Positions 849-17,105 of a stretch of DNA of 38,913 nucleotides are shown one piece after another. The position numbers were made by a program, and so were the translations under genes. This DNA is from Candidatus Saccharimonadota bacterium (GTDB taxonomy: Bacteria > Patescibacteriota > Saccharimonadia > Saccharimonadales > UBA4665). A model generated the notes under the pieces. That model was given only the letters and a program-made list of their open reading frames with translations, was not told the origin of the DNA and made no database searches. Each line of letters begins with the position of its first letter. Within the stretch, counting starts at the first letter, position 1. The stretch spans positions 1 through 38,913 of the forward strand of contig JAGORO010000008.1 in the NCBI GenBank assembly GCA_018062785.1, in the 5' to 3' direction.

Positions 849-1688
849 ATGATTTCATTAAAAAAGATTCCTAGAGCCGGCATGGCGCTCGTTGGTGCTT
901 TTTTTATTATGCTTGGATGCGTTTCGATATCTTTCGCGCAGACCGTTTCCCAAGCGTATGGTATAACCGGTGATGTGAAAAAAGGCATGCTGGTAATGAT
1001 CGACCCCAAAAATAGCAAGAACGTGCTGCCACTCACTAACAGTAAAGACGCAGCTATGCAGGGTATTGCGGTGGAACCAAACGAGACAGCGGTATCATTG
1101 GGATTAGACACTAAAACCAACCAAGTGTATGTCGCAACAAATGGTAAACTCAATGTTCTCGTAAGTACACAAAACGGTCCAGTCAAAAAAGGCGATATAA
1201 TCAGTATTTCTGCGCTAGATGGTATTGGTATGAAGGCTGATTCTGGCCAGAACGTTATTCTTGGGAAGGCACTAACCAATTTTGATGGCAAACAGAACAG
1301 TATCGGCAAAACTCAGCTCAAGACCACTTCGGGTCCACGCACGGTGTCGATAGGCTATGCGAGCGTCGACATAGGCATCTCAAAGAACCCTCTGGCTGCC
1401 AGTGTCAGCGGACCACCGATGCCGGCCTTTTTGCGAAAATCGGGCGATGCCATTGCTGGAAAGCCAGTTAGCACTGTTCGTTTGTGGGTTAGCTTTGGCG
1501 TTTTGGTTTTGACGCTCTTTATGGCGGGTAACCTACTCTATGGAGGGGTGCATAATAGCCTGATTTCTATTGGTCGAAACCCGTTAGCCAAAAAATCAAT
1601 CTTGCGGGGCTTGATACAGGTAGTAGTACTCGGACTAATGGTTTTTGTTATCGGGCTGTTTGCAATATACTTATTACTAACGTTATAA
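849..1688 (+). CDS. Exported protein with C-terminal hairpin resembling ATP synthase subunit c, lacking the ion-binding carboxylate
   Basis: About 279 residues. Residues 1-31 form a signal peptide or N-terminal anchor ending near SFAQ. Residues 32-205 form a Gly/Val/Lys-rich, probably beta domain outside the membrane, with phrases such as VKKGDIISISALDG. The end is a two-helix hairpin: TM1 about 213-233, a polar loop IGRNPLAKKS about 241-250, and TM2 about 254-279. Loop and spacing resemble subunit c, whose loop is typically ARQPE followed by a second helix with Glu or Asp about 18 residues after the Pro. Here that position is Leu, and neither helix has an acidic residue. It is first in the F1-like cluster, 31 nt before the b-like gene. 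The c relationship is inferred; an unrelated membrane anchor is possible. Start 849 was chosen over 804 from promoter position. Confidence 0.6.
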   Translation: MISLKKIPRAGMALVGAFFIMLGCVSISFAQTVSQAYGITGDVKKGMLVMIDPKNSKNVLPLTNSKDAAMQGIAVEPNETAVSLGLDTKTNQVYVATNGKLNVLVSTQNGPVKKGDIISISALDGIGMKADSGQNVILGKALTNFDGKQNSIGKTQLKTTSGPRTVSIGYASVDIGISKNPLAASVSGPPMPAFLRKSGDAIAGKPVSTVRLWVSFGVLVLTLFMAGNLLYGGVHNSLISIGRNPLAKKSILRGLIQVVVLGLMVFVIGLFAIYLLLTL

Positions 1689-1719: not shown

Positions 1720-2340
1720 ATGACAATCTGGTGGCCAGCACTAATTATCGGTAGTCTTCTGGCTGTGTTTATTGCTTTTGTATGGGTTGCTATCCGGCTC
1801 GGTAGCGTGCAGGCAGACAAGAAGAAAACGAGCGATGGAATTGAGCAAGCAGCTGAGGATGATGTCGAACATATCTTCAATGAAACATTCCGAGAAGAGC
1901 TCCGTAACAGGGGTCGACTGCACTTCGAAAAGATTATTTCCGAAAACGCCATGTTTTTGCAGCAAGACCTCCGGCTCACGACGAGCCAACTGAACGAATA
2001 CATGAAGGAGGAAATTACCAAAAACCTCCAGGACGAGTTTAAGAAGTACGAACAGTCTATTACTGATGCCAAGCAGATGGCGATTGACGCGCTCAAGAAG
2101 ACGAATGAGGTCATCGATGAACAGCGTGCTCACATATCAGAGGCACTGAGCGAAGAGGTGAAGCGAGAACGAGACAGGCTACTTATGCAATTCGAGAGTA
2201 ACATGGCCGATATCGTTAACCACTATGTTGTGGCAGCGATTGGCAACCAGATTGATCTCAGTGATCAGCTCGAGTATATTTTAAACGACCTGCACCTAAA
2301 TAAAGAGGCTATCCTCGAGGATATTAGACGTGGAGCCTAA
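1720..2340 (+). CDS. atpF: Subunit b-like peripheral stalk protein
   Basis: 206 residues. One N-terminal transmembrane helix (about 5-27, WWPALIIGSLLAVFIAFVWV) is followed by a long charged helical region (35-165) with coiled-coil character, and a C-terminal segment ending VNHYVVAAIGNQIDLSDQLEYI. This is the architecture of F-type subunit b, which anchors the stator to the membrane and to delta. Sequence similarity to classic b is weak, as usual in the family, so the call rests on architecture and position. Its stop lies inside the start of the delta-like gene (GTG at 2330), giving translational coupling. A GGTGGG site precedes the start. Confidence 0.75.
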   Translation: MTIWWPALIIGSLLAVFIAFVWVAIRLGSVQADKKKTSDGIEQAAEDDVEHIFNETFREELRNRGRLHFEKIISENAMFLQQDLRLTTSQLNEYMKEEITKNLQDEFKKYEQSITDAKQMAIDALKKTNEVIDEQRAHISEALSEEVKRERDRLLMQFESNMADIVNHYVVAAIGNQIDLSDQLEYILNDLHLNKEAILEDIRRGA

Positions 2341-2893
2341 CGATGCCGACGCTCAGTCTGTGCAAGTAGCTTCGGCATATCCGCAGCCTCAAGCTGCTCA
2401 ACCCTTACAGATGGCGCCAATACATTTGCCCGTGGGCGTAGTAAGTACGGGGGACGTCCGACGATTGCGCCGCGAAGTTTCCGAGATGGAAGACACAATT
2501 CAGGCCATACGCTTACGGACAAATGCGCCCGTTGCAAAATTACCCAGACTTAGCCGAGCGCTCGAAGAGCTTTCGAGTACCAATCGTCTCAACTTTCTTA
2601 TGCCAGAAGATCGAAAACACGCCGCTATCTTTCTCGATAACGTGCTTAGTAAGGCACCGGTCTTGCATATTAGTTTTGCCTCGGAGGCGAGTCGAAAATT
2701 CACAACTGAAATTGTGATGTGGCTGCGGGCGAACTTCGATAGTGAAATGCTAGTCGAGATTGGACTAGAGCCAAATATTGCTGCTGGGTGCATCGTACGG
2801 ACCACCAATCGATACTTTGATTTCTCGCTACAAAAGCATCTTGAGTCCAAGCGATCGATGCTTCTGGAACGCATTATGGAGACAAAGACATGA
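2330..2893 (+). CDS. atpH: F-type ATPase delta-like stator subunit
   Basis: 187 residues, GTG start overlapping the b-like stop by 11 nt. The first 45 residues are Pro/Gln/Ala-rich and probably disordered. A short coiled coil follows ([19 protein letters not shown]). The second half carries the most telling part: [18 protein letters not shown] then [20 protein letters not shown], which resembles the C-terminal domain of delta/OSCP-type proteins. The canonical N-terminal six-helix delta domain that caps alpha is not recognisable. The stop overlaps the alpha start (ATGA). Probably joins the b-like stalk to the F1 head. Confidence 0.75.
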
Positions 2894-4821
2894 GTTCAGG
2901 AAACCGTCATTTCGATGCACTTATCGAATCGGGAGCGCCGGTTGGTGAAGTCGTTGCCGTCGATAAGTTTTTGATCCAAGCGACTGGCCTACAGCCCTGC
3001 GCAGTCAACGCACTTGTAATGTTCGAAGATGGCAGTAAAGGGTTTGTGCACCAAGTTCACCCGGAGCATGTGATAATACTGCACCTCGGTACCGAAAACC
3101 TTCGCACCGGTATGGTAGCCGTACTACAGAACCAAGAACTGGTATGCAAAGTCGGCAAAGATTTCATCGGACGTGTTGTCTCGGTAACGGGGGAGCCGCT
3201 AGATGGTAAGGGCCCGATTGCCGCAGATGACATTTGGCCAGTTTTCAACACCGCTCCGTCGATCTATGAACGAAGGCTAGTCATGGATCAAGTCGAAAGT
3301 GGTGTGGTGGCCATTGATGCACTATTTCCTCTGGTGAGAGGGCAGCGTATGGCGCTGCTTGGCGACAGTAAATCAGGTAAGAGTACTGTCGTGACGCAGC
3401 TCGCCATTAACCAAAAAAACACCGATCAGGTGCTTGTCTACTGTCTTATTGCAAAACGTCGCGACGATATTGATATGCTTTTGAGCCGACTAACCGAAAA
3501 TGGTGGTCTCGAAAAGGCGATCGTGGTGGTGAGTACAATGTTCGAATCGCTCATCATGAGTTACATTGCGCCGTATGTGGCTTGTTCTATGGCGGAGTAC
3601 CTATGGCAAAAATGCGATCAAGATACGATTATCGTATACGATGACCTTACGAGCCATGCCCATGCGTACCGAGAGGTTGCACTACTGTCTGGTGTTAGCC
3701 CTGGGCGCGATAGCTATCCAGGCGACATGTTTTATGCGCACTCCAGCCTTCTTGAGCGTGCGGGTAGGCTAGAGAGCACAGGAAGGTCACTTACGAGCAT
3801 ACCTGTAGTACACGCTGCCAATGGCGACATCACGGCGTATCTTCCGACCAACATTATGTCCATTACCGACGGCCAGTGGATCTTGGACATGGAGATCTTT
3901 CGTAACGGTATCCGACCTGCCATCAACATAGGTCTTAGCGTGACTCGTGCCGGGGGCGTTGGTCATAACAAGCGCCAAAAAGATCTTGCCGCCCAGACCC
4001 TAAAAATTCTCGCCGACTACCGGCAAGCAGAAGAATTCTCTCACTTTGGTTCGGAGCTTGGCCCAGAGGCAAAACATGCTCTGGAGACTGGCAAACGAAT
4101 CTTTCAGATTTTAACGCAAAGCCCGAACGAAACGTTCTCGCTTACGTCCCAGCAGCTAATGCTTGACTTGGTACTCAACCTCAAAGATGGCCAGTCATTA
4201 GACATCCCAGCTCTCAAGCTACACGTTAACGACTTTGCGAGCAAAATAACTAAAGACGAAGAGTACGATCACATACGTTCATTACTAGAGAACGAAGTAG
4301 TTACCGGCACGGCTGCTGGTGACGAAAAGAGCGCCGAGAAGCCGGAGGTCTATGTAGATAAAGCCAAGCCAATCGAGGGCGATGGCAAGGCAATTGCTGC
4401 ACCTACCTCCGAAGCATCAGGAACGGAAGCAGAAGCAGCGTCTTCCGAGGATGCTACCCAGCAACCAACGGATGAATCTAATGAAGTGGCCGAGAACGCT
4501 GAGGCGGTGTCAGGGCAGCAAATAGCCACCGTACCAGATGTTGCAGATGAGGGCGAGCAACCTTTGGATAGCGAGCAGCCCAAACCAGAGGTAGAAACGG
4601 AAGGCCAAGACAAAAACGAATCGCCCGAGTCAGATGTTGCTCTAGCCGAGAGTGTTGTCCTAGCCGAAGAGCAAGTAGTCAACGAGGCACAAGAAGACAA
4701 TGCTGAAGAAAAGGTCACTCAAATGCTCGAACCTGACTCAAACTATGCGCAGCGAGAAAAAATGGCCAAGGAACACGTTGCTGCAGGTCAGGAGTCGGAG
4801 CAAAAGGACGGTGATTCGTGA
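2890..4821 (+). CDS. atpA: F1-type ATPase alpha subunit with long acidic C-terminal tail
   Basis: 643 residues against about 500-515 for normal alpha. The nucleotide domain has a P-loop GDSKSGKST at 158-166 (GDRQTGKT in typical alpha), a Walker B-like strand TIIVYDDLT around 246-254, and SVTRAGG with the arginine finger at R353 that completes the beta catalytic site. The normal fold ends near residue 470. Beyond it are about 170 residues rich in Glu, Ala, Ser and Gln with almost no hydrophobic core, predicted disordered and acidic. ATGA overlap with the upstream gene and GTGA overlap with gamma imply strict coupling. The P-loop differs but remains a plausible nucleotide binder. Confidence 0.95.
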
Positions 4822-5687
4822 AGCGTCCAAACGAAATAGCTAAAGAGGAAGTCTCGATGACAACCCTCGTCGAGTTGACAAGTGTTTTCGAGGGCATCGC
4901 TAGCATGAAGATCGCTCAGACCAAAAACCAAGTGCTGGAATCGACCAAGTTTTTTGACGAAATCTGGAAGATATACCTGCAGCTTCGTGTCGATGCGTTT
5001 TTTAGCTTCGGGCGCGATAAGGGCATTGATGCGAGTAAAATTATCGACAAGGAATTGTACATTATCATTACCGCCGAGGGTGGGTTTAGTGGCGATATCG
5101 ACCAGAAGCTTGTCGAGGAGCTGCTTAAGGAATATGACAAGGAAAAAAATGACATTATTGTTATTGGCCACCACGGCGCAATGCAGCTTAGTCAGCGCGG
5201 CGTAAATTTTCGTAAGTACTACAAGTTGCCGAAAAAAGATGAGAACATCAATGTCGCACCGATTATCAAAGAGGTCCAACAGTACAAAAAATGCTCGGTA
5301 TACTACCAAGAGTACGTATCACTCATGTCTCAGAATGTGAAAAAGATTAGCCTTTCGACGGCGGTACAAACGCAAGGTTCGAAGTCGGAAAACCCCGATG
5401 AAGTAATTAGCGAAGCAACATATATTTTTGAGCCGAGCAGCTATGCGGTGGCAGCATATTTGGAGCGATCGATGATGAAAATCGCTATTTCACAGCTGAT
5501 ACTTCAGTCCAAGCTAGCGCAGTATGCATCTCGATTCCGAGCGATGAGCGCATCGCATCAGCGCGCAGACGAGTCCAAATATGAGCTGCACATGGCGTAC
5601 AACCGTGCTCGTCGTAACGTTAAAGACGAACGACTAAAAGAGATTATAAATGGCATGAAAAAGGCCAAGAAAGGAGCGACGGCATAA
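4818..5687 (+). CDS. atpG: F1-type ATPase gamma (rotor shaft) subunit
   Basis: 289 residues. The GTG at 4818 is preferred over the ATG at 4857 (which has a good GAGGAAG site) because the longer N-terminus aligns with classic gamma: [10 protein letters not shown] against KEIRRRIRSV, then FEGIASMKI against KAMKMVAAAKL. The C-terminal helix is clear: [18 protein letters not shown] followed by [16 protein letters not shown], matching the gamma segment that inserts into the alpha3beta3 hexamer. The central Rossmann-like domain includes [13 protein letters not shown], the counterpart of the ITSDRGLCGG motif. It would be the rotating shaft; its foot should contact epsilon and a c-ring. Confidence 0.92.
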
Positions 5688-6988
5688 TGGCAGGCGTGAT
5701 TGTAAGCATAAAGGACCTAGTGGTACGCGCTCAGTTCGATGAGCAGCCACCGGCTATTAATGAGCTTGTAACGGTAGAAAACGAAAAGGGCACCGAGCTC
5801 TTGGTCGACCACCTTGAGCCGGGTGGTATCGCGTTTTGTCTCAATGTGCGGACTGATCGAAGCATCCAGAAAGGTATGCGAGTCGAGAGGACAGGCAGGG
5901 GTATCGAAGTGCCAATTGGTGAAGTCACAATCGGACGAATCCTCAACGCACTTGGTGATCCGCTCGATGGTCTCGAGCCAGTACCGCCTGAGTTGCCGCG
6001 TCGCGATATTTTAAAACTGCCGCCCAAAAGCACGAATTTTTCTGTCTCAAAACCAGAAATTATGGAAACGGGGATTAAGGTTATAGACTTTTTCACTCCA
6101 TTCGTGAAGGGTCGCAAGATCGGCGTTATCGGTGGCGCGGGAGTAGGCAAAACGGTTACGACCATGGAGCTCATTAACAATACTGCCAAGAGTAGCAATA
6201 GCTTGTCGTTTTTTGCCGGTATCGGTGAGCGTATCCGTGAAGGGCACGAGTTGTGGGATACACTGCGCGAAAACGACCTTCTCAAAAATACGGTGATGTT
6301 CTTTGCGCAGATGAATGAAAATCCCGTACAGCGTTCGCTCATTGGTATTTCTGCTACTGCCGCTGCCGAGTATTTTAGGGATGACGAAAAAAAGGACATT
6401 CTATTTTTTGCCGACAACATGTTTAGGTATATTCAAGCTAGAAATGAGCTTTCAACCATCCTTGATCAAATTCCGAACGAAGGCGGCTACGAGCCTACCG
6501 TGTTTTCGGACGTCAAGGTGCTACAAGACCGGTTGAGCTCAAATGAAAACGGATCGATCACATCGGTGCAGACCATCTATGTGCCAGCCGACGACATCTC
6601 CGACCCAGCAGTGCAGTTTATTCAGCATGAGATGGATTCCATCATCGTACTTAGCCGTAAGGTTGCCGAGCAGGGGATTCGTCCAGCCGTCGACTTGACT
6701 CTAACGAACTCGAGCTTGCTGACCCCCGAAATTGTAGGTGAGCGACACTACATGTTAAGCGTTAAGGTACAGGCACTGTTGCAGAAGTACGAATCACTTA
6801 AGGGCATTATTGCTATTATCGGCGAGAACGAGCTGTCGCCCGACGATCGAGCAGACTATGCCAAGGCTAAAAATCTTATCAAGAATTTTACGCAAAACAT
6901 GAACGTGATGACAAAACACAACGGTGTGCCCGGTGACTTCTTTACTCGTGAAGAAACATTGAAGAGCATTGAGGAAATAATTATTTAA
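5687..6988 (+). CDS. atpD: F1-type ATPase beta (catalytic) subunit, short C-terminus
   Basis: 433 residues against about 460-480. Catalytic parts are intact: P-loop GGAGVGKT (149-156), catalytic Glu in GERIREGHELW (E181), Walker B DILFFADNMFRY (D243), and a DELSEED-like lever NELSPDD (381-387). Deviations include ARNELSTIL where AGSEVSALL is usual, and P-N-E-GGYEPT in the adenine-pocket region. The protein stops just after FTREETLKSIEEIII, so the last 40-odd residues of normal beta (the YDHLPEQAFYMVG region) are absent. The start codon overlaps the gamma stop by one base (TAATG), with AAAGGAG upstream. It should hydrolyse ATP; whether it also synthesises ATP depends on an ion path not seen here. 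Confidence 0.95.
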   Translation: MAGVIVSIKDLVVRAQFDEQPPAINELVTVENEKGTELLVDHLEPGGIAFCLNVRTDRSIQKGMRVERTGRGIEVPIGEVTIGRILNALGDPLDGLEPVPPELPRRDILKLPPKSTNFSVSKPEIMETGIKVIDFFTPFVKGRKIGVIGGAGVGKTVTTMELINNTAKSSNSLSFFAGIGERIREGHELWDTLRENDLLKNTVMFFAQMNENPVQRSLIGISATAAAEYFRDDEKKDILFFADNMFRYIQARNELSTILDQIPNEGGYEPTVFSDVKVLQDRLSSNENGSITSVQTIYVPADDISDPAVQFIQHEMDSIIVLSRKVAEQGIRPAVDLTLTNSSLLTPEIVGERHYMLSVKVQALLQKYESLKGIIAIIGENELSPDDRADYAKAKNLIKNFTQNMNVMTKHNGVPGDFFTREETLKSIEEIII

Positions 6989-6993
6989 GTATC

Positions 6994-7305
6994 GTGGCAG
7001 ACAAGGATAAACCAGAAGAAAATACCGATGGCACTAGCAAGGCCGTTTCTTCTGGTAGCGAAGACACCATTCACCTCAAGGTGTATTCGCCGTACAAACA
7101 GTACTACGACGGCCCAGCTCTTAGCGTAAGCGCAGAGAGCGCCACGGGACCATTTGATATTTTACCGAAGCACCACAATTTTATTACGCTCTTGCAGCCA
7201 TGCGCAGTGCACGTTCGTAAGCCTGACGGCGAGCAGACGATCGACATTTCTGGTGGCGTGTTGCATGTCAAGGCCGATAAGATTGTTGTATTCCTAGATG
7301 TGTAG
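6994..7305 (+). CDS. atpC: F1-type ATPase epsilon subunit, beta-sandwich domain only
   Basis: 103 residues, GTG start 5 nt after the beta stop. About 25 hydrophilic residues come first, then the epsilon N-terminal beta-sandwich: IHLKVYSPYKQYYDGPALSV, GPFDILPKHHNFITLL (family GELGILPGHAPLLTAL) and ISGGVLHVKADKIVVFLDV. It ends there. The C-terminal helical hairpin of about 45 residues, which inhibits ATP hydrolysis in many bacteria, is missing. Short epsilons exist in other bacteria, so this is not a broken gene, but it removes a brake on hydrolysis. Last gene of the cluster. Confidence 0.9.
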   Translation: MADKDKPEENTDGTSKAVSSGSEDTIHLKVYSPYKQYYDGPALSVSAESATGPFDILPKHHNFITLLQPCAVHVRKPDGEQTIDISGGVLHVKADKIVVFLDV

Positions 7306-7307
7306 AC

Positions 7308-7637
7308 ATTGGACATTGGATGTTAGAAAATCTCATCCGCTCCCAATGTTTTACGTCCATGCCAGCACTACCTTGGTTGGCGTATTTTATCAAGGGGAGG
7401 GCTCGCCCTCCCCGTTTGTAATCGAACTTAGTTCGATTACTGCACTCCCCGCCCCTAAAGCACGGCAGCGGAGCTGCCTGTGTCATCTTTGGCTCCAATG
7501 TAACGTAGGGGATGAAGGTATTCCTCTCCCGAATAGCTTTTCCTTCCGAAAAGCTATTCGCTCGGTTAGCGTCTCGTAAGGTGGAATGGAAGTTTTTCTG
7601 ATGTCTAACGTCTAGCTTCGAACATCCAATGTCCAAT
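7308..7637. repeat. Palindrome-rich repeat element A with 17-bp terminal inverted repeats
   Basis: Fills the gap between two convergent genes, starting 3 nt after one stop and ending 3 nt before the other. The ends are perfect inverted repeats: ATTGGACATTGGATGTT at 7308-7324 and its complement at 7621-7637. Inside are palindromes: GGGGAGGGCTCGCCCTCCCC at 7394-7413, a hairpin with arms GTAATCGAA/TTCGATTAC near 7417-7440, GGCAGC/GCTGCC near 7463-7478, and GAATAGCTTTT/AAAAGCTATTC near 7531-7561. The core 7389-7577 recurs inverted at 15797-15985. No transposase is encoded. MITE-like non-autonomous element is the best description; it could also fold as a transcription barrier. Confidence 0.8.
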
Positions 7638-7639
7638 AC

Positions 7640-8611
7640 CTACTCAACCGTAAAGTAGTCGAAGCCGAAGCTGGCAAGACTTGGAGGAGCCTTTGCGGCA
7701 CATACACTGAAGCTAGTTGTCGAGCGGTTGACGTACATGCCAATATCCCCTGCTGCGGCCCCAACAGGTGTAACGATAACGCGAGGGGTATTGTTATAAC
7801 GTTGCGCAAAGTTAACGGTCACAAAACAGCCGGCCGAGGCCCCGTTGCCGGTATTTACATTGATACTTCCGGCGATATCAGAACCGCTTACAGCCACAGT
7901 ACCACCACTTCCCAGCGCTGGACCATTTGTGCGAGCAGGGTTTGCACCGCCTGCAGCGAGGTGGCGCGTCAGATTGAGGTTACCATTGAGTTGTAGGTTG
8001 TTTGTAGTGATTGCGGGAGCAGAAACCGGGCCGTTGAACGTACCGCCTCCGCCCGAAGTTATGCCTTTTTGCGCCGACAATTGCCCTTGCGTGGCAATGT
8101 TGCCGATAACTGAAAGGTCTTTGTTGACCGAAATCGCCTCAAACACACTGTTGCCCGAAACGGTGATACCAGGGACATTAAGCGCACCGCCAACCTGAAT
8201 AGGACCAGCCACTTCGAGGCGGTCTCGTATAAGAACGCGGCCAGCAAATACGGCATTGCTTTGAACGCTCAGGACTTGCTTTGGTTGACCCACGCTAACA
8301 TCGTTGTTTGCGAGATCTTTGAGTGTTTCGGTACTAAGGCTTTGCGTGTCGACCTTGGCAGCATCTTGGCGTTTGCTCGCTAGGTATGTCACAGCGATAA
8401 CCACGCCTGCAAGCAGTAACAACAAGAGAAACAGTAGTAAGTAGATGTTTATCCTGTGAGTTATCTTTTCGACAAACGATCCGCTCTTTGCCGACGTGAC
8501 ATCTGTCTTGGCGGCATCGGTAGGCGAAGATTGGGAAGCCTCGAGTGAGCTAGTTGCCTCCGACGACTCTAGGCTATTTGATTCGAGTGAATTTGATTCG
8601 TTTTTGTCCAT
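7640..8611 (-). CDS. Membrane-anchored surface protein with beta-repeat stalk
   Basis: 323 residues, not assigned to a named family. A Ser/Glu-rich cytoplasmic N-terminus includes a direct repeat ESNSLESNSLESS. A single hydrophobic helix follows (about 55-77, INIYLLLFLLLLLLAGVVIA), then an external region. Residues 115-235 show short periodic strands (FAGRVLIRDRLEVAG, IQVGGALNVPGITVSG, FEAISVNKDLSVIGN) suggesting a beta-solenoid. The last 85 residues form a separate domain with two cysteines (ASAGCFVTV, FSVCAAKAPP) and a terminal FGFDYFTVE. This looks like a stalk with a C-terminal head displayed outside. No Shine-Dalgarno site is evident. It runs divergently from the other surface genes. Confidence 0.75.
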   Translation of the reverse strand: MDKNESNSLESNSLESSEATSSLEASQSSPTDAAKTDVTSAKSGSFVEKITHRINIYLLLFLLLLLLAGVVIAVTYLASKRQDAAKVDTQSLSTETLKDLANNDVSVGQPKQVLSVQSNAVFAGRVLIRDRLEVAGPIQVGGALNVPGITVSGNSVFEAISVNKDLSVIGNIATQGQLSAQKGITSGGGGTFNGPVSAPAITTNNLQLNGNLNLTRHLAAGGANPARTNGPALGSGGTVAVSGSDIAGSINVNTGNGASAGCFVTVNFAQRYNNTPRVIVTPVGAAAGDIGMYVNRSTTSFSVCAAKAPPSLASFGFDYFTVE

Positions 8612-8762: not shown

Positions 8763-9509
8763 ATGAAAAAGAGACACATTTTAGTAATGGTACTAGCGCT
8801 TATTTGTATCGGTAGTGCGCAGAGCGTTGCAACTGCCCAGCAGTCATCGTCAAGCAATTTTCGGGTAAATGAGGTCTTTTTTGGGTCGGGTGGTGAGTTA
8901 AAAGCTTGTTCGGGCTCGTACTGTTCAAAACAATCGGCCGGTGAGCTTACGGTGGGTAATACGAGCAGCAGTAATTATCAGGCTCAAGCAGGGTTCAACA
9001 CGAATCGCGAGCCATGGATTGGTATGCAGGTGCTAACCCCAGCTACCTCCGCAAATGATGTACTTTCTTTTAGTCAAGCCCGGTACGCGACGGCTCAATT
9101 TAGAGTCAGTGCGTACCTTGGTAGCGGATATGTCGTTCAGACATGGGGAAATGGTGGTATGAAAAACGGGAGTCGCTTGCTGGCGAATCTTACGACGCCA
9201 TCTGCATCATCACCCGGAACGGAACAGTTCGGTATCAATCTAGTCGCCAATACCAGCCCAACTACTCTGGGTGGAAATCCCACGCAATCGCCCGACTACG
9301 TTTCGCAACCATTCGGATTCGGTCAAGCAGCTTCGGGCTACAGCACACCAAATATGTACAAATATGTCGATGGCGACACTATAGCGCGTTCTACCAAGAG
9401 TACGACGTATACCGACTACACCATCTCGTACCTGTTTAATATCACGCCAATCACCCCTGGGGGCACGTATACAATGAACCAGTCCCTCGTCGCAACCGCA
9501 ACATTCTAG
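8763..9509 (+). CDS. Secreted beta-rich surface protein
   Basis: 248 residues with a clear Sec signal peptide (MKKRHILVMVLALICIGSAQ, cleavage probably after ATA-Q near residue 25). An N-terminal FRVNEVFFGSGGE segment with two cysteines (KACSGSYCSK) leads to a C-terminal domain shared with the protein at 12391: QFGINLVANTSP, PNMYKYVDGDTIARS, and a final strand ITPGGTYTMNQSLVATATF. The last residue is Phe, as in the three following surface proteins. No membrane helix or sortase motif is present, so retention would need a partner, perhaps the anchored proteins at 13542 or 14570. Function unknown; adhesion to a host cell is only a guess. Confidence 0.8.
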   Translation: MKKRHILVMVLALICIGSAQSVATAQQSSSSNFRVNEVFFGSGGELKACSGSYCSKQSAGELTVGNTSSSNYQAQAGFNTNREPWIGMQVLTPATSANDVLSFSQARYATAQFRVSAYLGSGYVVQTWGNGGMKNGSRLLANLTTPSASSPGTEQFGINLVANTSPTTLGGNPTQSPDYVSQPFGFGQAASGYSTPNMYKYVDGDTIARSTKSTTYTDYTISYLFNITPITPGGTYTMNQSLVATATF

Positions 9510-9700: not shown

Positions 9701-10930
9701 ATGAAAACACACCTTGAGCTTCTGCGCCGCGGAAGTGCTGCCTTGGCAGCGCTCGCTCTTGTGGTGGGTGCGACCGTACCTACACTCGTAGCTCCGTTGG
9801 CTTCTGCAAGCCAGCTGGTTGACAGAAGTATGCAGCTGTCAGATTCAGGTGCGAGCGGTGGCTCTATCACTACAGGCGTAGGAAGCGGAACCAACGTTTC
9901 CTATAAATTAACGTTTACCACGCTAGCCGCGATGCAGTCTATGGTCGTAGACTTCTGCGACAACACGCCGCTTATTGGCGATGCTACATGTACGGCCCCA
10001 GCGGGGATGACAAATGCGAGTGCAGCCCTAACGGCGAACGGGGCGTGGTCACTCGGCACGCCAGACAATGTGTATCAGTGGCGATTAACAAACACTGGTT
10101 CGCAGGCAGCCGGAACGTTTACATTCGAGGTTACGGGCATGGTTAATCCAAACACCCAAAACCACTCATATTACGCCCGTATCACAACCTATAGTGACGC
10201 AACCTACGGTAGCTCTGGTACAGCCTACTCAAGCCCCGGTAGCGTTGGTAGCAAAGTCGATGATGGTGGCATTGCTCTATCGACAGCAACGCCCATTACC
10301 GTAACAGCTCGCGTCATGGAAACATTGTCGCTCTGCACGTCAGCGGCTGCAATGGCTGCAGCTAACTCTTGCGGTTCAGCTACACCCCCTTCGGTTGTTT
10401 TGGGACACACTGCGAATAATATTTTGACTTCTGACCAAACAGACACTGCCAGCGTATTCACCCAACTTTCGACCAATGCAGCCAATGGCTACGCCCTCTA
10501 CTTGCGCGCAAGCAACCTAGCTTGCCCCAACGGTGCATCAGCCGGCGGTGGCCTTAGTAAAGACGGTGGTTCAAACTGCCATATCCCAGCTATTAACGGC
10601 GGGTCTGCAACGCCTTCTACTTTCCCAGCTGCAACTGCAGGTTTTGGTGCACGAGTCAGTAACGGTACGGCCGCAACAAGTGGCACAGGCAGCAACACGG
10701 CAGTAAGTCGCTGGAACCCAGCAGCTGATAACTACCTCATGGACACAGTGACCTCAAACGACAATGTGGTTTCTAATTACGGCAGCAAAATTGCCTTTAC
10801 AGACACTGGCGATGCAAAGCAAGCTAACAGTGTTAACAACACGCTTACGTTTGCCGCCCAAGCTTCACCGGTTACACCAGCCGGTATCTACACCGAGAAC
10901 TTTAGCCTAATAGGTGTGGGAACATTCTAA
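9701..10930 (+). CDS. Secreted beta-rich surface protein, paralog of 11107
   Basis: 409 residues. Signal peptide 1-36 (basic start, then ALAALALVVGATVPTLVAPL, ending ASAS). The N-terminal domain (about 37-180) contains the signature MQLSDSGASGGSITTG and cysteines in VVDFCDNTPLIGDATCTAP; a middle low-complexity region is rich in Gly, Ser and Thr. The C-terminal domain has further Cys pairs (SLCTS/NSCGS, NLACPNG/SNCHIPA) and ends SPVTPAGIYTENFSLIGVGTF minus its first residue. No anchor is encoded. It is closely related to the next gene, including a 143-bp identical DNA tract. The strong promoter, leader and Rho-independent terminator suggest an abundant single-gene transcript. Likely a major surface protein; function unknown. 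Confidence 0.85.
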   Translation: MKTHLELLRRGSAALAALALVVGATVPTLVAPLASASQLVDRSMQLSDSGASGGSITTGVGSGTNVSYKLTFTTLAAMQSMVVDFCDNTPLIGDATCTAPAGMTNASAALTANGAWSLGTPDNVYQWRLTNTGSQAAGTFTFEVTGMVNPNTQNHSYYARITTYSDATYGSSGTAYSSPGSVGSKVDDGGIALSTATPITVTARVMETLSLCTSAAAMAAANSCGSATPPSVVLGHTANNILTSDQTDTASVFTQLSTNAANGYALYLRASNLACPNGASAGGGLSKDGGSNCHIPAINGGSATPSTFPAATAGFGARVSNGTAATSGTGSNTAVSRWNPAADNYLMDTVTSNDNVVSNYGSKIAFTDTGDAKQANSVNNTLTFAAQASPVTPAGIYTENFSLIGVGTF

Positions 10931-11106: not shown

Positions 11107-12354
11107 ATGAGTATTACTCGCAACTCATTGGCCCGACCAGCGGCAGTGTTATGCGCGCTTGCGCTGTTGGTTGGTGTCGCATCCCCTGCGTTTTTGTCGC
11201 CCCTAACGACATACGCAGCCCAATTACAAAACCGCCAAATACAGATGTCCGATTCGGGCGCTAGCGGTGGCTCTATCACTACCGGCGTCGGCAGCGGTAC
11301 GGCCGTCAAGTACAAACTAACATTTACGAGCACGAATGCTATGCAGTCGATGGTTGTAGACTTCTGCGACAACACACCGCTTATTGGTGATGCGACCTGT
11401 ACGGCACCAACTGGCTTTACAACATCTGGCGCAACGCTGACAGTCAATGGCTCATGGTCGCTTTCGACTCCAAGTGCTACACAGTGGAAGCTATCAAACA
11501 CCAGTTCTCAGGCAGCCGGAACTTTCGAATTTGAAGTAAATGGTATCACCAACCCAAGCACGCAGAACCACTCGTTCTACGCTCGTGTTACGACCTACTC
11601 AGACGCAACCTACGGTAGCTCTGGTACAGCCTACTCAAGCCCCGGTAGCGTTGGTAGCAAAGTCGATGATGGTGGCATTGCTCTATCGACAGCAACGCCC
11701 ATTACCGTAACAGCTCGCGTCATGGAAACATTGTCGCTCTGCACCTCTGGTGGCGATGCGGCAAATGCCACAAACTTAGCAGCCGCTAACTCTTGCGCTT
11801 CGGCTACACCGCCCTCAATCATCCTTGGGCACACTGCCAATAATGTGTTAACAGCAGACGCAATTGACACCAAAAATGTCTTTACTCAACTTTCGACCAA
11901 TGCAGCCAATGGCTACGCCCTCTACCTGCGTGCGGGCAACCTAGCTTGCCCCAACGGCTCATCAGCCGGCGGTGGCCTCAGTAAAGACGGTGGTTCAAAC
12001 TGTCATATCCCAGCTATTAACGGTGGGTCTGCTTCGGGTGGAGCCATGACAGCCGGTACGGCAGCCTTCGGTGCACAGGTACTTTCCGGCACGGCTGCAA
12101 CCAGCGGCACAGGCTCCAATACTGCAGTTACTCGTTGGGCTCAAACTGGCAGTAACTACATCATGGACACAGTGACCTCAAACGACAATGTGGTTTCTAC
12201 CTACGGCAGCAAGATTGCCTTCACCGACACCGCAGATTCGAAGCAGGCCAACAGCGTCAACAACACACTTAAGTTTGCAGCAACTGCTTCACCAGTTACT
12301 CCAGCAGGTATCTACACAGAAAACTTCAGCCTCATCGGCGTAGGTACATTCTAA
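11107..12354 (+). CDS. Secreted beta-rich surface protein, paralog of 9701
   Basis: 415 residues, collinear with the 9701 protein: signal peptide to about residue 38, signature IQMSDSGASGGSITTG, cysteines in VVDFCDNTPLIGDATCTAP, a central stretch rich in Ser/Gly/Thr, and the same ending PAGIYTENFSLIGVGTF. Differences cluster in the mature N-terminus and in two short loops (extra GGDAANATNL, and GGSASGGAMTAGT). Bases 11602-11744 are identical to 10196-10338, while flanking coding sequence has diverged. The two genes probably give interchangeable or alternately expressed surface subunits. 36 nt separate it from the next gene without a terminator. Confidence 0.85.
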   Translation: MSITRNSLARPAAVLCALALLVGVASPAFLSPLTTYAAQLQNRQIQMSDSGASGGSITTGVGSGTAVKYKLTFTSTNAMQSMVVDFCDNTPLIGDATCTAPTGFTTSGATLTVNGSWSLSTPSATQWKLSNTSSQAAGTFEFEVNGITNPSTQNHSFYARVTTYSDATYGSSGTAYSSPGSVGSKVDDGGIALSTATPITVTARVMETLSLCTSGGDAANATNLAAANSCASATPPSIILGHTANNVLTADAIDTKNVFTQLSTNAANGYALYLRAGNLACPNGSSAGGGLSKDGGSNCHIPAINGGSASGGAMTAGTAAFGAQVLSGTAATSGTGSNTAVTRWAQTGSNYIMDTVTSNDNVVSTYGSKIAFTDTADSKQANSVNNTLKFAATASPVTPAGIYTENFSLIGVGTF

Positions 12355-12390: not shown

Positions 12391-13446
12391 ATGCGAAGGC
12401 AGCGAGTACGAAACATAACCTTCGCAAGCCTTACGGCCCTTCTGCTGATTGCAGCAGTTGGGCCGTTTGCTGTTTGGCGCACTGAGGCAGCGGAGCTGGC
12501 GACGCGCCAACTCACCATGAGCTCTAACATTACTAGCGCCACGGCACAGTACGAACTTTCGTTTTCTGGACAGTCAACAGGCACAGTCGGGTCGGTTCGG
12601 TTGCAGTTATGTGCGAATGATCCATTCTATGGAACGCCTTGTGTCGCCCCAGCTGGACTCGACCTTAGCGCCGCTTCGCTTACAGGTCAGACAGGAATGA
12701 CAGGCTTCAGTATCGATCCTAGCTCTAGCGCAAACGAACTTGTGCTTACGCGAACGCCGGCAGCATCAATAGCTGGGCTAGCCACATACACATTGCAAGG
12801 AGTGAAGAACGCTAGCAGTCAAGGGACGGTATTTGGGCGTATAGAAACATTTGCGAGTACCGATGCGACCGGTCCACGCACTGATGCGGCTGGGCTTGCG
12901 ATAGCGTATCTCGATTCGGCGATCGGTGTGCAGTCTACCGTGCCGCCGTACTTACTTTTTTGCATCGGCAACACAGTTCAGGCATATGATTGCAGCACCG
13001 CAAACGGTAACTTTACGGACTTTGGCGATTTTTCTATAACATCAACGGCGACTGGGCAAACTCAAATGATTGTGGCCACGAATGCCGAATTTGGCTATAC
13101 GATCCGTGCCATGGGTACAACATTGACCTCTGGTACCAATGTGATTCCTGCGCTTGCCACGCCAGATATTGCACGTAAAGGCGTGAGCCAGTTCGGAATG
13201 AATCTCCGAGCTAATGGGGTGCCTCCAGTCGGGCACGATGTCATGGGTGGAGGTTCGGGCGTGATCCGTCCTGCCTACAATGCTCCAAATTACTTCGCAT
13301 TTATCCCCGGTGATACCCTCGTTCAATCGCCGACCCCAGAATACAAGCGTCTCTTTACCGTAACGTATATGGCAAATATCTCAAAAAACCAGCCACCTGG
13401 TGCGTACGTCAGCACGCTAACGTACGTTGCATTAGCCTCATTCTAG
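12391..13446 (+). CDS. Secreted surface protein, two-domain hybrid
   Basis: 351 residues. Signal peptide about 1-34 (TFASLTALLLIAAVGPFAVW, ending TEA-A). The N-terminal domain resembles that of the 9701/11107 proteins: ATRQLTMSSNITSATAQYEL, then LQLCANDPFYGTPCVAPAG in place of VVDFCDNTPLIGDATCTAP. The C-terminal domain instead matches the 8763 protein: SQFGMNLRANGVPP, PNYFAFIPGDTLVQS, and a terminal PPGAYVSTLTYVALASF. Cysteines also occur in LLFCIGNTVQAYDCS. Probably co-transcribed with 11107; its ribosome site (AAAGG) is weak. Perhaps a minor or tip component of a surface layer; function unknown. Confidence 0.8.
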   Translation: MRRQRVRNITFASLTALLLIAAVGPFAVWRTEAAELATRQLTMSSNITSATAQYELSFSGQSTGTVGSVRLQLCANDPFYGTPCVAPAGLDLSAASLTGQTGMTGFSIDPSSSANELVLTRTPAASIAGLATYTLQGVKNASSQGTVFGRIETFASTDATGPRTDAAGLAIAYLDSAIGVQSTVPPYLLFCIGNTVQAYDCSTANGNFTDFGDFSITSTATGQTQMIVATNAEFGYTIRAMGTTLTSGTNVIPALATPDIARKGVSQFGMNLRANGVPPVGHDVMGGGSGVIRPAYNAPNYFAFIPGDTLVQSPTPEYKRLFTVTYMANISKNQPPGAYVSTLTYVALASF

Positions 13447-13541: not shown

Positions 13542-14549
13542 GTGCAAAAAACTATCATAAAGCGTTCATTGTCACTTATTGCGGCCGTATTACTTCTGGT
13601 TAGTGTTGGTGGGGTAGGCTCTGCACAGCAAACAACAGCCGGCAATTACGGCAACGGCATTCGGGTATCGCCCGTACGAACAGATCTTGTTATGAACCCA
13701 GGCGAAACACGCCAGATTAGTGTCACTATCTCCAACTTGACCTCCGCTAGCTCCGATTACCAAGCGTATGTGAACGATTTCATCGCTGCAGATGGCGAGC
13801 TTGGGCAGCCAGCCCTGATTCTCGATAACGACAAGTATGCTCCAAGCCATAGCCTCAAGCGGTACATGCAAAATGTACCAAATGTTACTGTCGGCGCTGG
13901 GCAGTCAAAGGATGTCAAGGTCACGATCAGTATCCCACGAGATGCGGCTGCAGGTGGGTACTACGGTGCAGTGCGATTTGCCCCAGCCAAGGGTGGTGAT
14001 GACTCAAAAAACGTTACTCTCGCAGCAAGTGTCGGTTCGCTCATCCTTGTTAAGGTCCCTGGTGATATTAAGGAAAACGTAACCCTCGAAACATTCGACG
14101 TTCGTAAAGGGACAGGCAACAAGAACGGTAGCAGCTTCTTTACCACAAACAAAGACCTCTACGCTGTCACAAGATTCAATAACTCGGGCAATGTTCACGA
14201 ACAGCCATTCGGTAAGTTACAGCTTAAAAAGGGCGGCAAGGTCATCGAAACTCTCGAGATCAACAATACTGATCCACGTGGGAATGTACTTCCCGATAGC
14301 GTACGTCGCTTTGAGAGCAAGCTGACAAAAGTTGGTTTTTGGGGCAAGTACGAAGTAGAGGGTAACTTTGGGTACGGTACTAATGGTCAGCTCCTCCAAG
14401 CAAAATCAACGTTTTACGTCTTCCCGCTCGTACTCATTCTTATTGGCTTAGGCTTACTCATCCTTGTACTCTTCTTGCTCTTTGGCCTTCCAAAAGCAAT
14501 CAAGAACTACAATCGAAATGTAGTCCGAAAAGCCAACAGGCGTAGGTAG
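13542..14549 (+). CDS. DUF916-like (WxL-interacting type) anchored surface protein
   Basis: 335 residues from a GTG. Signal peptide 1-28 (SLSLIAAVLLLVSVGGVGSA). Next comes an Ig-like domain typical of DUF916: GIRVSPVRTDLVMNPGETRQ, then ISVTISNLTS and a second strand-rich domain with AAGGYYGAVRFAP. A C-terminal membrane helix (about 292-315, FPLVLILIGLGLLILVLFLL) is followed by a basic tail NYNRNVVRKANRRR. In Firmicutes, DUF916 proteins pair with secreted WxL proteins and tether them to peptidoglycan or membrane. Here it follows three secreted proteins whose C-termini form a comparable beta domain, so a tethering role is reasonable. The family call is from motif memory, not a search. Confidence 0.7.
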   Translation: MQKTIIKRSLSLIAAVLLLVSVGGVGSAQQTTAGNYGNGIRVSPVRTDLVMNPGETRQISVTISNLTSASSDYQAYVNDFIAADGELGQPALILDNDKYAPSHSLKRYMQNVPNVTVGAGQSKDVKVTISIPRDAAAGGYYGAVRFAPAKGGDDSKNVTLAASVGSLILVKVPGDIKENVTLETFDVRKGTGNKNGSSFFTTNKDLYAVTRFNNSGNVHEQPFGKLQLKKGGKVIETLEINNTDPRGNVLPDSVRRFESKLTKVGFWGKYEVEGNFGYGTNGQLLQAKSTFYVFPLVLILIGLGLLILVLFLLFGLPKAIKNYNRNVVRKANRRR

Positions 14550-14569: not shown

Positions 14570-15511
14570 ATGACGGCATATCGTAAATGTACAGGCATAG
14601 TAGCAGCATTTGCGATGTTGAGTCTTGCGTTACTGTCGCCTTCATCGGCACTAGCGCAATCCACAAATCCAGAGCAGGGCGGTACTACTGGGCTTCAGGG
14701 CACCATACCGAGTGCGCCTCCGAAGACCGCTGCCACTATTGCCGTGCCCGGTAGCGGCCAAACATTCACGTCCATTCCAGTTACAGTTAGCGGCTTATGC
14801 TCCGGTGATGTTGTCGTGAAGGTATTTAGTAACAATATATTTGTAGGATCAGCACAGTGCCAAAACGGTAGCTACCGGCTACAGATAGATCTGTTTGGTG
14901 GCCAAAACTCACTCGTGGCACGGGTGTACGATGCATTGGACCAAGCAGGGCCCGACAGCAATACGGTACTCGCGACATTCCAAGACGGACAGTTCGCTGC
15001 TTTTGGCCAGCGAGTAAGCCTAACCAGTACACTTGCCAAAAATGGTGCGCTTGTCGGCAAGCAGCTCAGCTGGCCTATCGTACTAAGTGGCGGGAGTGGA
15101 CCGTATGCTCTAAGTATTGACTGGGGTGATGGTACTTCGACAGACCTCAAGAGCATCTCTTTTGCCGGTCCGCTTAATCTTACTCATGCCTACAAGAAAG
15201 CTGGTATATTCCGTGTCACCGTTAAGGCAACAGATGCAACAGGAGCGGCGGCATTCTTGCAGCTTGTTGGGGTTGGTATGGGTAGCGTATCCCAAGTTAG
15301 CGATGGGCAGTCTACTTCTGTCGCCGGTGGTGGCAAGAATGCCGGTCAGGGCGGGGGAGAGGTCCAGCGTATCTATATTTGGTGGCCAGTGCTGCTCCTA
15401 GTTCCGTTCATATTTGCAACATTTTGGATTGGCCGACGCTACGAACTCCTAGCCTTGCACCGCAAGATCGAGCGCGAAGCCAAACTGTACGAAAATGAAA
15501 TCCAACGCTAG
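14570..15511 (+). CDS. Anchored surface protein with Ig-like and PKD domains
   Basis: 313 residues, 20 nt behind the previous gene with GAGGAAG, so same operon. Signal peptide about 1-30 (AFAMLSLALLSPSSALAQ). Residues 45-130 look like an Ig-like fold (GSGQTFTSIPVTVSGLCSGD). Residues 150-235 form a PKD domain with the hallmark SIDWGDGTSTD and later LTHAYKKAGIFRVTVKATD. A membrane helix (about 268-288, WWPVLLLVPFIFATFWIG) is followed by a charged cytoplasmic helix. PKD domains usually mediate protein or carbohydrate contacts outside the cell. With the DUF916-like protein it probably forms the membrane-bound base of the surface assembly. Confidence 0.8.
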   Translation: MTAYRKCTGIVAAFAMLSLALLSPSSALAQSTNPEQGGTTGLQGTIPSAPPKTAATIAVPGSGQTFTSIPVTVSGLCSGDVVVKVFSNNIFVGSAQCQNGSYRLQIDLFGGQNSLVARVYDALDQAGPDSNTVLATFQDGQFAAFGQRVSLTSTLAKNGALVGKQLSWPIVLSGGSGPYALSIDWGDGTSTDLKSISFAGPLNLTHAYKKAGIFRVTVKATDATGAAAFLQLVGVGMGSVSQVSDGQSTSVAGGGKNAGQGGGEVQRIYIWWPVLLLVPFIFATFWIGRRYELLALHRKIEREAKLYENEIQR

Positions 15512-15512
15512 T

Positions 15513-15985
15513 TAGACGTTGAAAGGTAGAAGTTAGAATTCAGAAAATCTCACTCATATCAACGTTTCATCCCCATTTACACACTTTACCCCTAGTAGTT
15601 CAATCCCATTCTCCAGTAGACCCGAAGGGCCTACCTCCTTACTTTTGGCTTAGCTTGGGAAGTAAGCAAAAGACCAAGGCTAGACTTCCATCTCTTGGGA
15701 TGCTATGTGCAGCGAAGCCGCACGTATGTATACCTGCGAGCTTCGCTCGCTAGCAACAACATATGTCCCCAATCCCAGATAACCATCGTAGGCTTCACGA
15801 GACGCTAACCGAGCGAATAGCTTTTCGGAAGGAAAAGCTATTCGGGAGAGGAATACCTTCATCCCCTACGTTACATTGGAGCCAAAGGCAACACAGGCAG
15901 CTCCGCTGCCGTGCTTTAGGGGCGGGGAGTGCAGTAATCGAGCTAAGTTCGATTACAAACGGGGAGGGCGAGCCCTCCCCTTGAT
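15513..15985. repeat. Palindrome-rich repeat element B, inverted copy of A
   Basis: This 520-base gap holds no gene. Bases 15797-15985 are the reverse complement of 7389-7577 with only about four mismatches in 189. The left end (15513-15547) carries a degenerate version of the family boundary, TTAGACGTTG then AGAAAATCT. Between boundary and core are further short palindromes such as GCGAGCTTCGCTCGC near 15737-15751. Together with element A it brackets all seven surface genes. The frame of mnmA runs open into it, but the mnmA promoter lies to the right, so that extension is not coding. Confidence 0.8.
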
Positions 15986-16015
15986 GGAAAGGCAGGCCCC
16001 TCCGACATACTATTA

Positions 16016-16031
16016 TGCTACAATACGACCG
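16016..16031 (+). promoter_or_regulatory. Extended -10 promoter of mnmA, leaderless
   Basis: TGCTACAAT at 16016-16024 ends 8 nt before the ATG, so transcription should start at or next to the start codon. There is no Shine-Dalgarno site. This fixes the mnmA start at 16032. Confidence 0.7.
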
Positions 16032-17105
16032 ATGAAAAACAGCCAAACAAAGGTGTATGTTGGTTTGAGCGGCGGTGTCGATAGTTCGGTAACGGCAGCC
16101 TTGCTGATCGAGCAGGGTTATGACGTCACGGGCGTCTACATGAAAAACTGGAGCCAAGATTTGCCTGGCTTCGACTGCCCTTGGAAAGAAGACTATCAGG
16201 ACGCCAAGCGAGTCGCGGTACAGCTTGGCATACCGTTCAAACTCTACGATTTTGAGAAAGAGTACAGAGAGTATGTCGTCGACTACATGCTTGATGGCTA
16301 TAAGAAGGGTATTACACCGAATCCGGACATCATGTGCAATCAAGAGATTAAGTTCAAGTTGTTCTTGCGGGCGGCATTGGCCGACGGTGCAGATATAATA
16401 GCTACTGGTCACTATGCGCGCACGCAGGATGGGCAACTCCTCACGGCAGCTAACACCGAAAAGGATCAAACCTATTTCCTGTATCGTGTCAATGAAGACG
16501 CGCTACGGCATAGCCTCATGCCCATCGGCGATTTTACAACCAAAGAGGCTGTTCGTGCCAAGGCGGCCGAGTTGGGGCTCGCGACAGCCCGCAAAAAAGA
16601 TAGCCAGGGTATTTGTTTTATTGGGAAGGTTGGAATCAAAGAATTTCTTTTGCATGAGCTCGGACAGCAAGTAGCTGGCAACATTGTTGATCAGTTTGGT
16701 CGGACAATTGGCCAGCACGACGGTGCGATCTTTTACACGATTGGGCAACGGCAGGGCCTAGGCATCGGTGGCGGTCTGCCGTACTATGTCACCGGCAAAG
16801 ACATGGACAAAAACGAGGTGTATGTCACGACTGATCTTCAGGACGAAAAACTGTGGTATGGCGAGTTTACTTTGGCCGAGTTGCACTGGATCAATGAAGT
16901 CCCCAAAAAAGGTAAACAGTACCAAGTGCGTACACGATATAGAGCAGAGCTGGTTGCCTGTACGCTCGAGTTTGGGGTTTTCAGAACTGGTCAAACACCG
17001 GCTTGCGTCGTCAAGCTGGCAAGTGAAGTTCGAGCTCTCACTCCGGGTCAGTCGGCTGTGCTGTACGATGGAGCGCGAGTGGTAGGTGGTGGCATCGTCT
17101 GCTAA
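16032..17105 (+). CDS. mnmA: tRNA-specific 2-thiouridylase MnmA
   Basis: 357 residues, normal length. It adds sulfur to U34 of Lys, Glu and Gln tRNAs using ATP and a persulfide carrier. The N-type PP-loop is GLSGGVDSSVTAALL (11-25). Catalytic cysteines are C102 in IMCNQEIKF and C195 in SQGICFIGKVGIKEF. GHYAR and the IGQRQGLGIGGGLPYYV segment are family hallmarks. An upstream in-frame ATG at 15876 was rejected because those 52 codons lie in repeat B and ahead of the promoter. The cysteine desulfurase at the window start could feed it sulfur. Confidence 0.97.
   Translation: MKNSQTKVYVGLSGGVDSSVTAALLIEQGYDVTGVYMKNWSQDLPGFDCPWKEDYQDAKRVAVQLGIPFKLYDFEKEYREYVVDYMLDGYKKGITPNPDIMCNQEIKFKLFLRAALADGADIIATGHYARTQDGQLLTAANTEKDQTYFLYRVNEDALRHSLMPIGDFTTKEAVRAKAAELGLATARKKDSQGICFIGKVGIKEFLLHELGQQVAGNIVDQFGRTIGQHDGAIFYTIGQRQGLGIGGGLPYYVTGKDMDKNEVYVTTDLQDEKLWYGEFTLAELHWINEVPKKGKQYQVRTRYRAELVACTLEFGVFRTGQTPACVVKLASEVRALTPGQSAVLYDGARVVGGGIVC

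Follow-up and report, generated by a model that had tools for sequence, protein, structure and literature searches.

The rotary ATPases closest to the one considered here come from mycoplasmas. Type 2, the G1-ATPase, serves M. mobile gliding, and Type 3, the F1-like X0 ATPase, belongs to the MIB-MIP system (PMC3369863, PMC8406192, PMC11864180, PMC12994834). These F1-like ATPases have been tied to gliding (PMC8406192, PMC11864180); the X0 enzyme is needed for antibody cleavage (PMC12994834), and the system is stated to be mycoplasma-specific (PMC3369863, PMC12994834). Non-ion F1 motors have so far been described only from mycoplasmas, and their membrane half is unexplained. A separate puzzle is posed by the Patescibacteria: members of this phylum that lack a respiratory chain still have ‘F-type ATP synthase’ genes (PMC11665869), and in the one species tested those genes are dispensable for growth (PMC10633639).

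The DNA analysed here (the window) is a stretch of 38,913 nucleotides from a Candidatus Saccharimonadota bacterium; it is contig C6 of a genome of 862 kb that is 97% complete, and the bacterium is tiny and probably parasitic. Downstream of a gene designated X, the window encodes a second, Fo-less F1, designated F1', in the order X-b-delta-alpha-gamma-beta-epsilon, unbroken after X. We lean, modestly, towards the reading that F1' and X make up an ATP-hydrolysing complex of rotary type that has dropped ion transport and works on surface proteins. A broader proposal, finely balanced and in our judgement just short of probable, is that this is a device found throughout the Patescibacteria, in which F1 would turn a c-derived, ion-blind ring bearing a phage-appendage-like crown outside the cell, so driving or tensioning surface fibres; the c ring and stalk would have been kept and the ion path lost. 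A literature search for such a system in Patescibacteria found none.

In outline F1'-X resembles the mycoplasma F1-like X0 ATPases. Like Types 2 and 3, it has extra alpha, beta, gamma and epsilon subunits beside a normal F1Fo, and neither a nor an ordinary c; the mycoplasma systems too are thought to work on surface proteins, and each mycoplasma cluster, as here, encodes a protein that combines a signal peptide and an ectodomain with two transmembrane (TM) helices at its C-terminus. Gene content and beta scores set it apart. The mycoplasma clusters include a 12-TM protein and have no b or delta, whereas the F1'-X operon has no 12-TM gene and does have b2 and d2; its two-TM protein, which has a GRNP loop and is probably homologous to subunit c, differs from the mycoplasma membrane parts. 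In a beta comparison that covered Type 2 through M. mobile G1, the F1' beta scores 352 bits against Chloroflexus beta, 285 against G1 beta and about 146 against SsaN. A tie between F1' and the M. mobile G1-ATPase was rejected, as G1 beta falls below all the ordinary F1 betas listed.

The six F1' genes all lie on the forward strand. The first, b2 (1720..2340), encodes an N-terminal hydrophobic helix and a long charged helix, and is subunit b-like, a stalk, by sequence and operon position; the b2 of the window has no Pfam subunit b match, and b2 was found in 51 of 60 relatives. The delta/OSCP-like d2 (2330..2893) has a weak match to PF00213 in its C-terminal part (E 0.0023, under the cut-off). 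Alpha (A2, 2890..4821; PF00006, 7.5e-67) ends in a long acidic tail, which in the window's genus is of low complexity and about 170 residues long, and is short or missing in many relatives. Gamma (G2, 4818..5687; PF00231, 3.7e-31) contains a ‘foot’, YIFEP (5421..5435), the counterpart of the c-loop-contacting segment in canonical gamma; in E. coli F1Fo that segment meets the c-loops. Beta (D2, 5687..6988; PF00006, 1.5e-63) has its catalytic residues intact, and epsilon (e2, 6994..7305; PF02823, 5.9e-16) consists of the beta-sandwich only, with no C-terminal helical (inhibitory) domain. These features hold well beyond the window: the Arg finger and P-loop Lys of alpha are retained in 64 of 64 F1', the beta motifs GGAGVGKT and GER in 56 of 56, with the catalytic Glu invariant, and the Glu-Pro of the foot in 59 of 59 gammas. 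As read from these sequences, the joint retention of catalytic residues, gamma foot and stalk suggests a motor, not a relic. A b-like stalk anchored in the membrane, with a delta-like cap, is more than a free ATPase requires, and the keeping of the stator-like b2 and d2 is expected if torque is transmitted.

The protein X itself (849..1688, forward strand, with an in-frame ATG also upstream at 804) has 279 residues, comprising a predicted signal peptide, an exported beta domain and a C-terminal hairpin like that of subunit c. The AlphaFold2 monomer, built on an alignment with 78 relatives (mean pLDDT 91.3), has a signal-peptide-like helix at residues 11-23, the beta domain at about 33-179 (945..1385), and helices at 209-243 and 245-278 that are broken at GRNP. 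The original prediction, made from the letters of the window, had placed the N-terminal domain outside the cell, and the predicted N-out topology supports this; it had also put the size of the beta domain at about 175 residues, which the model brings down to an ordered part of about 145-150 residues and a linker.

The exported domain takes the fold of phage appendage and capsid decoration proteins, a fold that is often trimeric. Compared with VIA-align, it reaches Z 12.5 with the C-terminal fragment of phi29 gp12, Z 12.3 with the HFTV1 capsid-interface protein and Z 9-11 with decoration proteins; in the viral structure library BFVD it matches preneck appendage proteins at E 1.5e-8, and some relatives of X match Phage_cement in Pfam (6.9e-7). 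X shares this fold with the C-terminal domain of gp12 and with capsid cement, and differs from them in that the domain is fused to a membrane hairpin. In many genomes across the phylum, giant fibre proteins (ORFs of 500-4400 aa) also contain a domain related to the exported one of X.

The hairpin (residues 209-278; 1473..1682) overlays the subunit c chain 9itt_I at an rmsd of 1.2 A over 69 of 69 residues, the whole of that chain (Z 10.8), and nearly all of its best structural matches are c subunits. The long hairpin of seryl-tRNA synthetase also scores Z 9, but at 3.6 A; as unrelated long hairpins reach such values, a Z near 10 is weak evidence for helical hairpins, and weight is placed on rmsd and coverage instead. 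The apex, G242-R-N-P245 (1572..1583), presumably cytoplasmic, does not vary in an alignment of 78 relatives with identities as low as 25%, and so is not a chance likeness; among 138 X proteins it reads GRNP in 133, S/IRNP in four and ARQP in one, and the loop of the same genome's own c subunit is also GRNP. A polar c-type loop in a c-like hairpin had been proposed from the window's sequence, and the proposal extends to the relatives. It had likewise been pointed out that Leu stands where c subunits bind the ion: Leu263 (codon CTA, 1635..1637) lies 18 residues past the loop Pro, the position of Asp in the c subunit encoded by this genome (GRNPEKLSEIRTLMITAIVFAD), and the 134 X proteins that could be scored have L (61), I (27), V (27), F (12), G (3), A (2), T (1) or M (1) there; none has Asp or Glu within four residues of the site. 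Conserved small residues run along one face of each helix, mostly at 3-, 4- or 7-residue spacing, a pattern that would suit tight packing.

Profile searches gave a divided answer. When 34 canonical c subunits were made into a profile, X proteins took the top 26 places among 11,688 ORFs (best E 4e-5), and in several the alignments extend into both helices; when ten loop residues were shuffled the signal was lost, and profile-profile comparison of the group-1 X hairpins with c gave no support outside the loop. Sequence by itself therefore argues for a common loop only. The Pfam family PF00137 (ATP-synt_C), the search originally suggested, does not match the X of the window at its curated cut-off, is absent from the families listed for 78 X proteins, and at best gives 16.6 bits, for one X at full length, against a cut-off of 24; the expected likeness to c thus emerges with the dedicated profile, in a loop-dependent way, and stays below the cut-off in Pfam. 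The hairpin is probably homologous to subunit c, with the shared loop as the sequence part of the case and the fold, predicted topology and operon company as the remainder. X shares with subunit c the hairpin of two helices, the R-N-P loop, the predicted topology (N-out, loop-in) and the gene neighbours, and differs from it in having no ion-binding carboxylate, in carrying an exported N-terminal domain and in falling under the Pfam cut-off.

Neither a subunit a nor an ion-binding c is encoded in the X operon. The same genome has a full canonical operon, a-c-b-delta-alpha-gamma-beta-epsilon, on contig C7, which holds its sole PF00119 and PF00137 matches. Elsewhere this is not always so: among 29 genomes with X, 12 lack PF00119 (subunit a); 11 of the 12, all with X and F1', also lack PF00137 over the cut-off. 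One of the 11 has a sub-threshold PF00137 fragment in another protein; three (G210, G303 and G337) are single contigs; the twelfth genome, G067, has V-type-like tandem c domains. In these 11 genomes no F-type rotary ATPase besides F1'-X was detected, and though they encode no ion path they may carry an ‘ATP synthase’ annotation. This excludes, as a general function, a pump that borrows Fo parts. X as a partner of canonical a and c was considered and rejected, since genomes without both exist.

The linkage of X to F1' was followed in genomes that are mostly metagenome-assembled; the named relatives are almost all Candidatus Saccharibacteria and include the complete chromosomes CP025011.1 and CP075337.1; the latter, of strain TM7i, has the operon (locus L196). 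Alpha lies just downstream of X in 66 of 80 loci of the named collection (7 more end too early), and in 34 of 40 more drawn from the phylum's other families and classes; in others, F1' genes adjoin X in a different orientation. A Paceibacterota locus (L201) has the identical seven-gene order, followed by a fibre gene. Among 60 relatives, 44 have both X and F1', seven F1' only, none X only and nine neither (Fisher p 8e-7). In the alpha tree, 40 F1' and 21 canonical sequences, E. coli included, lie on two sides of one branch with support 100/100. The proposed tie of X to F1 genes is thus borne out by conserved order across the phylum, by strict co-occurrence and, in some genomes, by F1'-X being the sole F-type rotary ATPase. 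Homologs lying away from F1 genes had been named as a sign against coupling. Such solo X copies do exist: six X loci have no adjoining F1, and the F1' gamma is elsewhere in the same genomes; four genomes have an X-less F1' operon plus a solo X at another place. As all the genomes with a solo X that were checked also have F1' at another site, these copies do not refute coupling.

The converse case is F1' without X. Seven genomes retain F1' without any X, with the gamma foot present where readable, and F1' may thus have another partner there. A hairpin-only search of the F1'-bearing X-less genomes uncovered no hidden X; several weak matches were canonical c genes. X-less operons are nested inside the X-bearing group in the alpha tree, so that loss of X is the simpler reading. 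In most of the X-less operons (L103-L113; G011, G021, G050 and others), b2 comes directly after a cysteine desulfurase gene; the gamma foot is still YIFEP in these operons, and seven of those genomes are without X anywhere.

Surface genes follow X, an association that adds to what had been predicted. On the reverse strand beyond epsilon lies c1 (7640..8611), which encodes an acidic disordered tail, a TM helix, a fibre-like shaft and a beta-sandwich tip; weak Foldseek matches (E about 0.03-0.06) liken the tip to H-type lectins and to the receptor-binding domains of tailspikes. Of the 38 genomes that have a group-1 X, 36 have this gene, against 0 of 22 others, and it tracks X rather than F1' (p 2e-10 within F1'-positive genomes). 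Then, on the forward strand, come four secreted proteins with similar C-termini (8763-9509, 9701-10930, 11107-12354 and 12391-13446), probably parts of a surface complex; a WxL-interacting protein (WxLIP)-like protein with a peptidoglycan-binding domain and a C-terminal TM helix (13542..14549; PF06030, 2.1e-9); and a PKD-domain membrane protein (14570..15511; PF00801, 1e-5). X-less operons are without the whole surface cluster, and most go straight from epsilon to mnmA. Elsewhere, group-2 solo X lies directly upstream of giant TM-anchored fibre genes, giant fibres also lie beside X in several further families and in other classes of the phylum, and in family f104 WxLIP-like proteins stand beside X or between X and b2. 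The WxLIP peptidoglycan-binding protein is the point of likeness to the WxL surface complexes of Gram-positive bacteria; we know of no link between WxL complexes and an F1 ATPase. Genetically, it is X that connects F1' with the surface cluster, and it may do so mechanically as well; gene neighbourhood and phylogenetic profile speak to linkage, not to force.

In the rotary scheme towards which we lean, alpha3beta3 (A2, D2) would hydrolyse ATP while the b2/d2 stalk kept it from turning; gamma and epsilon (G2, e2) would rest on a membrane ring formed by the c-derived hairpins of X, with the Glu-Pro foot against the GRNP loops. As both subunit a and the carboxylate are missing, such turning could not move ions, and the torque would go to the exported beta domains, which might pass it on to the c1 fibre or a giant fibre and to the WxLIP-like cell-wall-binding complex, perhaps gripping or sampling host cells. 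By our estimate, a ring with a beta domain on each subunit would leave these domains little room, and they would have to splay outward. The absence of subunit a as a brace for the b2 stalk counts against the motor model.

The same absence is accommodated by supposing that nothing rotates continuously: X hairpins, in a ring or in a trimer set by the beta domain, would merely anchor F1', whose ATPase would act as a sensor or switch of surface binding. Solo X copies beside giant fibres, the often trimeric appendage/decoration fold and the survival of F1' without X in seven genomes all fit a static dock; it does not account for the retention of b2, d2, catalytic residues and gamma's c-loop foot, nor for an X hairpin that keeps the length, curvature and small-residue faces of subunit c, and we regard it as unlikely, if the most serious competitor. 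Less likely again is a motor for insertion, export or assembly of surface fibres, with X as membrane port or platform. F1-related ATPases energise type III secretion, X and the surface cluster are gained or lost together, and X adjoins fibre genes in several families; against this, the F1' beta is nearest to true F1 and not to type III secretion ATPases, by the Chloroflexus and SsaN scores given above, F1' has gamma, epsilon, b- and delta-like subunits, and X has its own predicted signal peptide, a c-like fold and no sign of a channel.

Two further accounts have little left to them. The complete canonical F1Fo of this genome might let X mix into the ordinary c ring, or let another residue work with canonical subunit a, making F1'-X an ion pump; yet no X of the 134 scored has an acid at the site, and eleven X+F1' genomes have neither subunit a nor a qualifying PF00137 c, which makes a pump very improbable. 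Slightest of all is the chance that X is a surface protein that happens to lie by F1 genes, or that the operon is decaying. Sequence similarity to c is confined to the loop in the window's own clade, as this account would have it, but fully conserved catalytic motifs, gene order kept across the phylum and co-occurrence that persists even where the genes are split have largely refuted it.

Some ‘F-type ATP synthase’ annotations in Patescibacteria may be F1'-X, without an ion path, and the complex may serve contact with host cells across a large part of the bacterial tree. As its membrane part is recognisable as a probable converted c subunit, the way in which torque might leave F1 without ions becomes testable.

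Two minor observations concern the surroundings of X. At seven loci (L226, L228, L230, L233, L234, L235 and L259) the giant fibre by X begins with an N-terminal MerR-type DNA-binding domain, next to which come a TM helix and then a long phage-fibre-like repeat region. Within the window, near-identical stretches lie in opposite orientation at 7298-7579, close to where the F1' operon ends, and at 15795-16469, near mnmA; their ORF translations end in WLQCNVGDEGIPLPNSFSFRKAIRSVSVS, and they form a local repeat.
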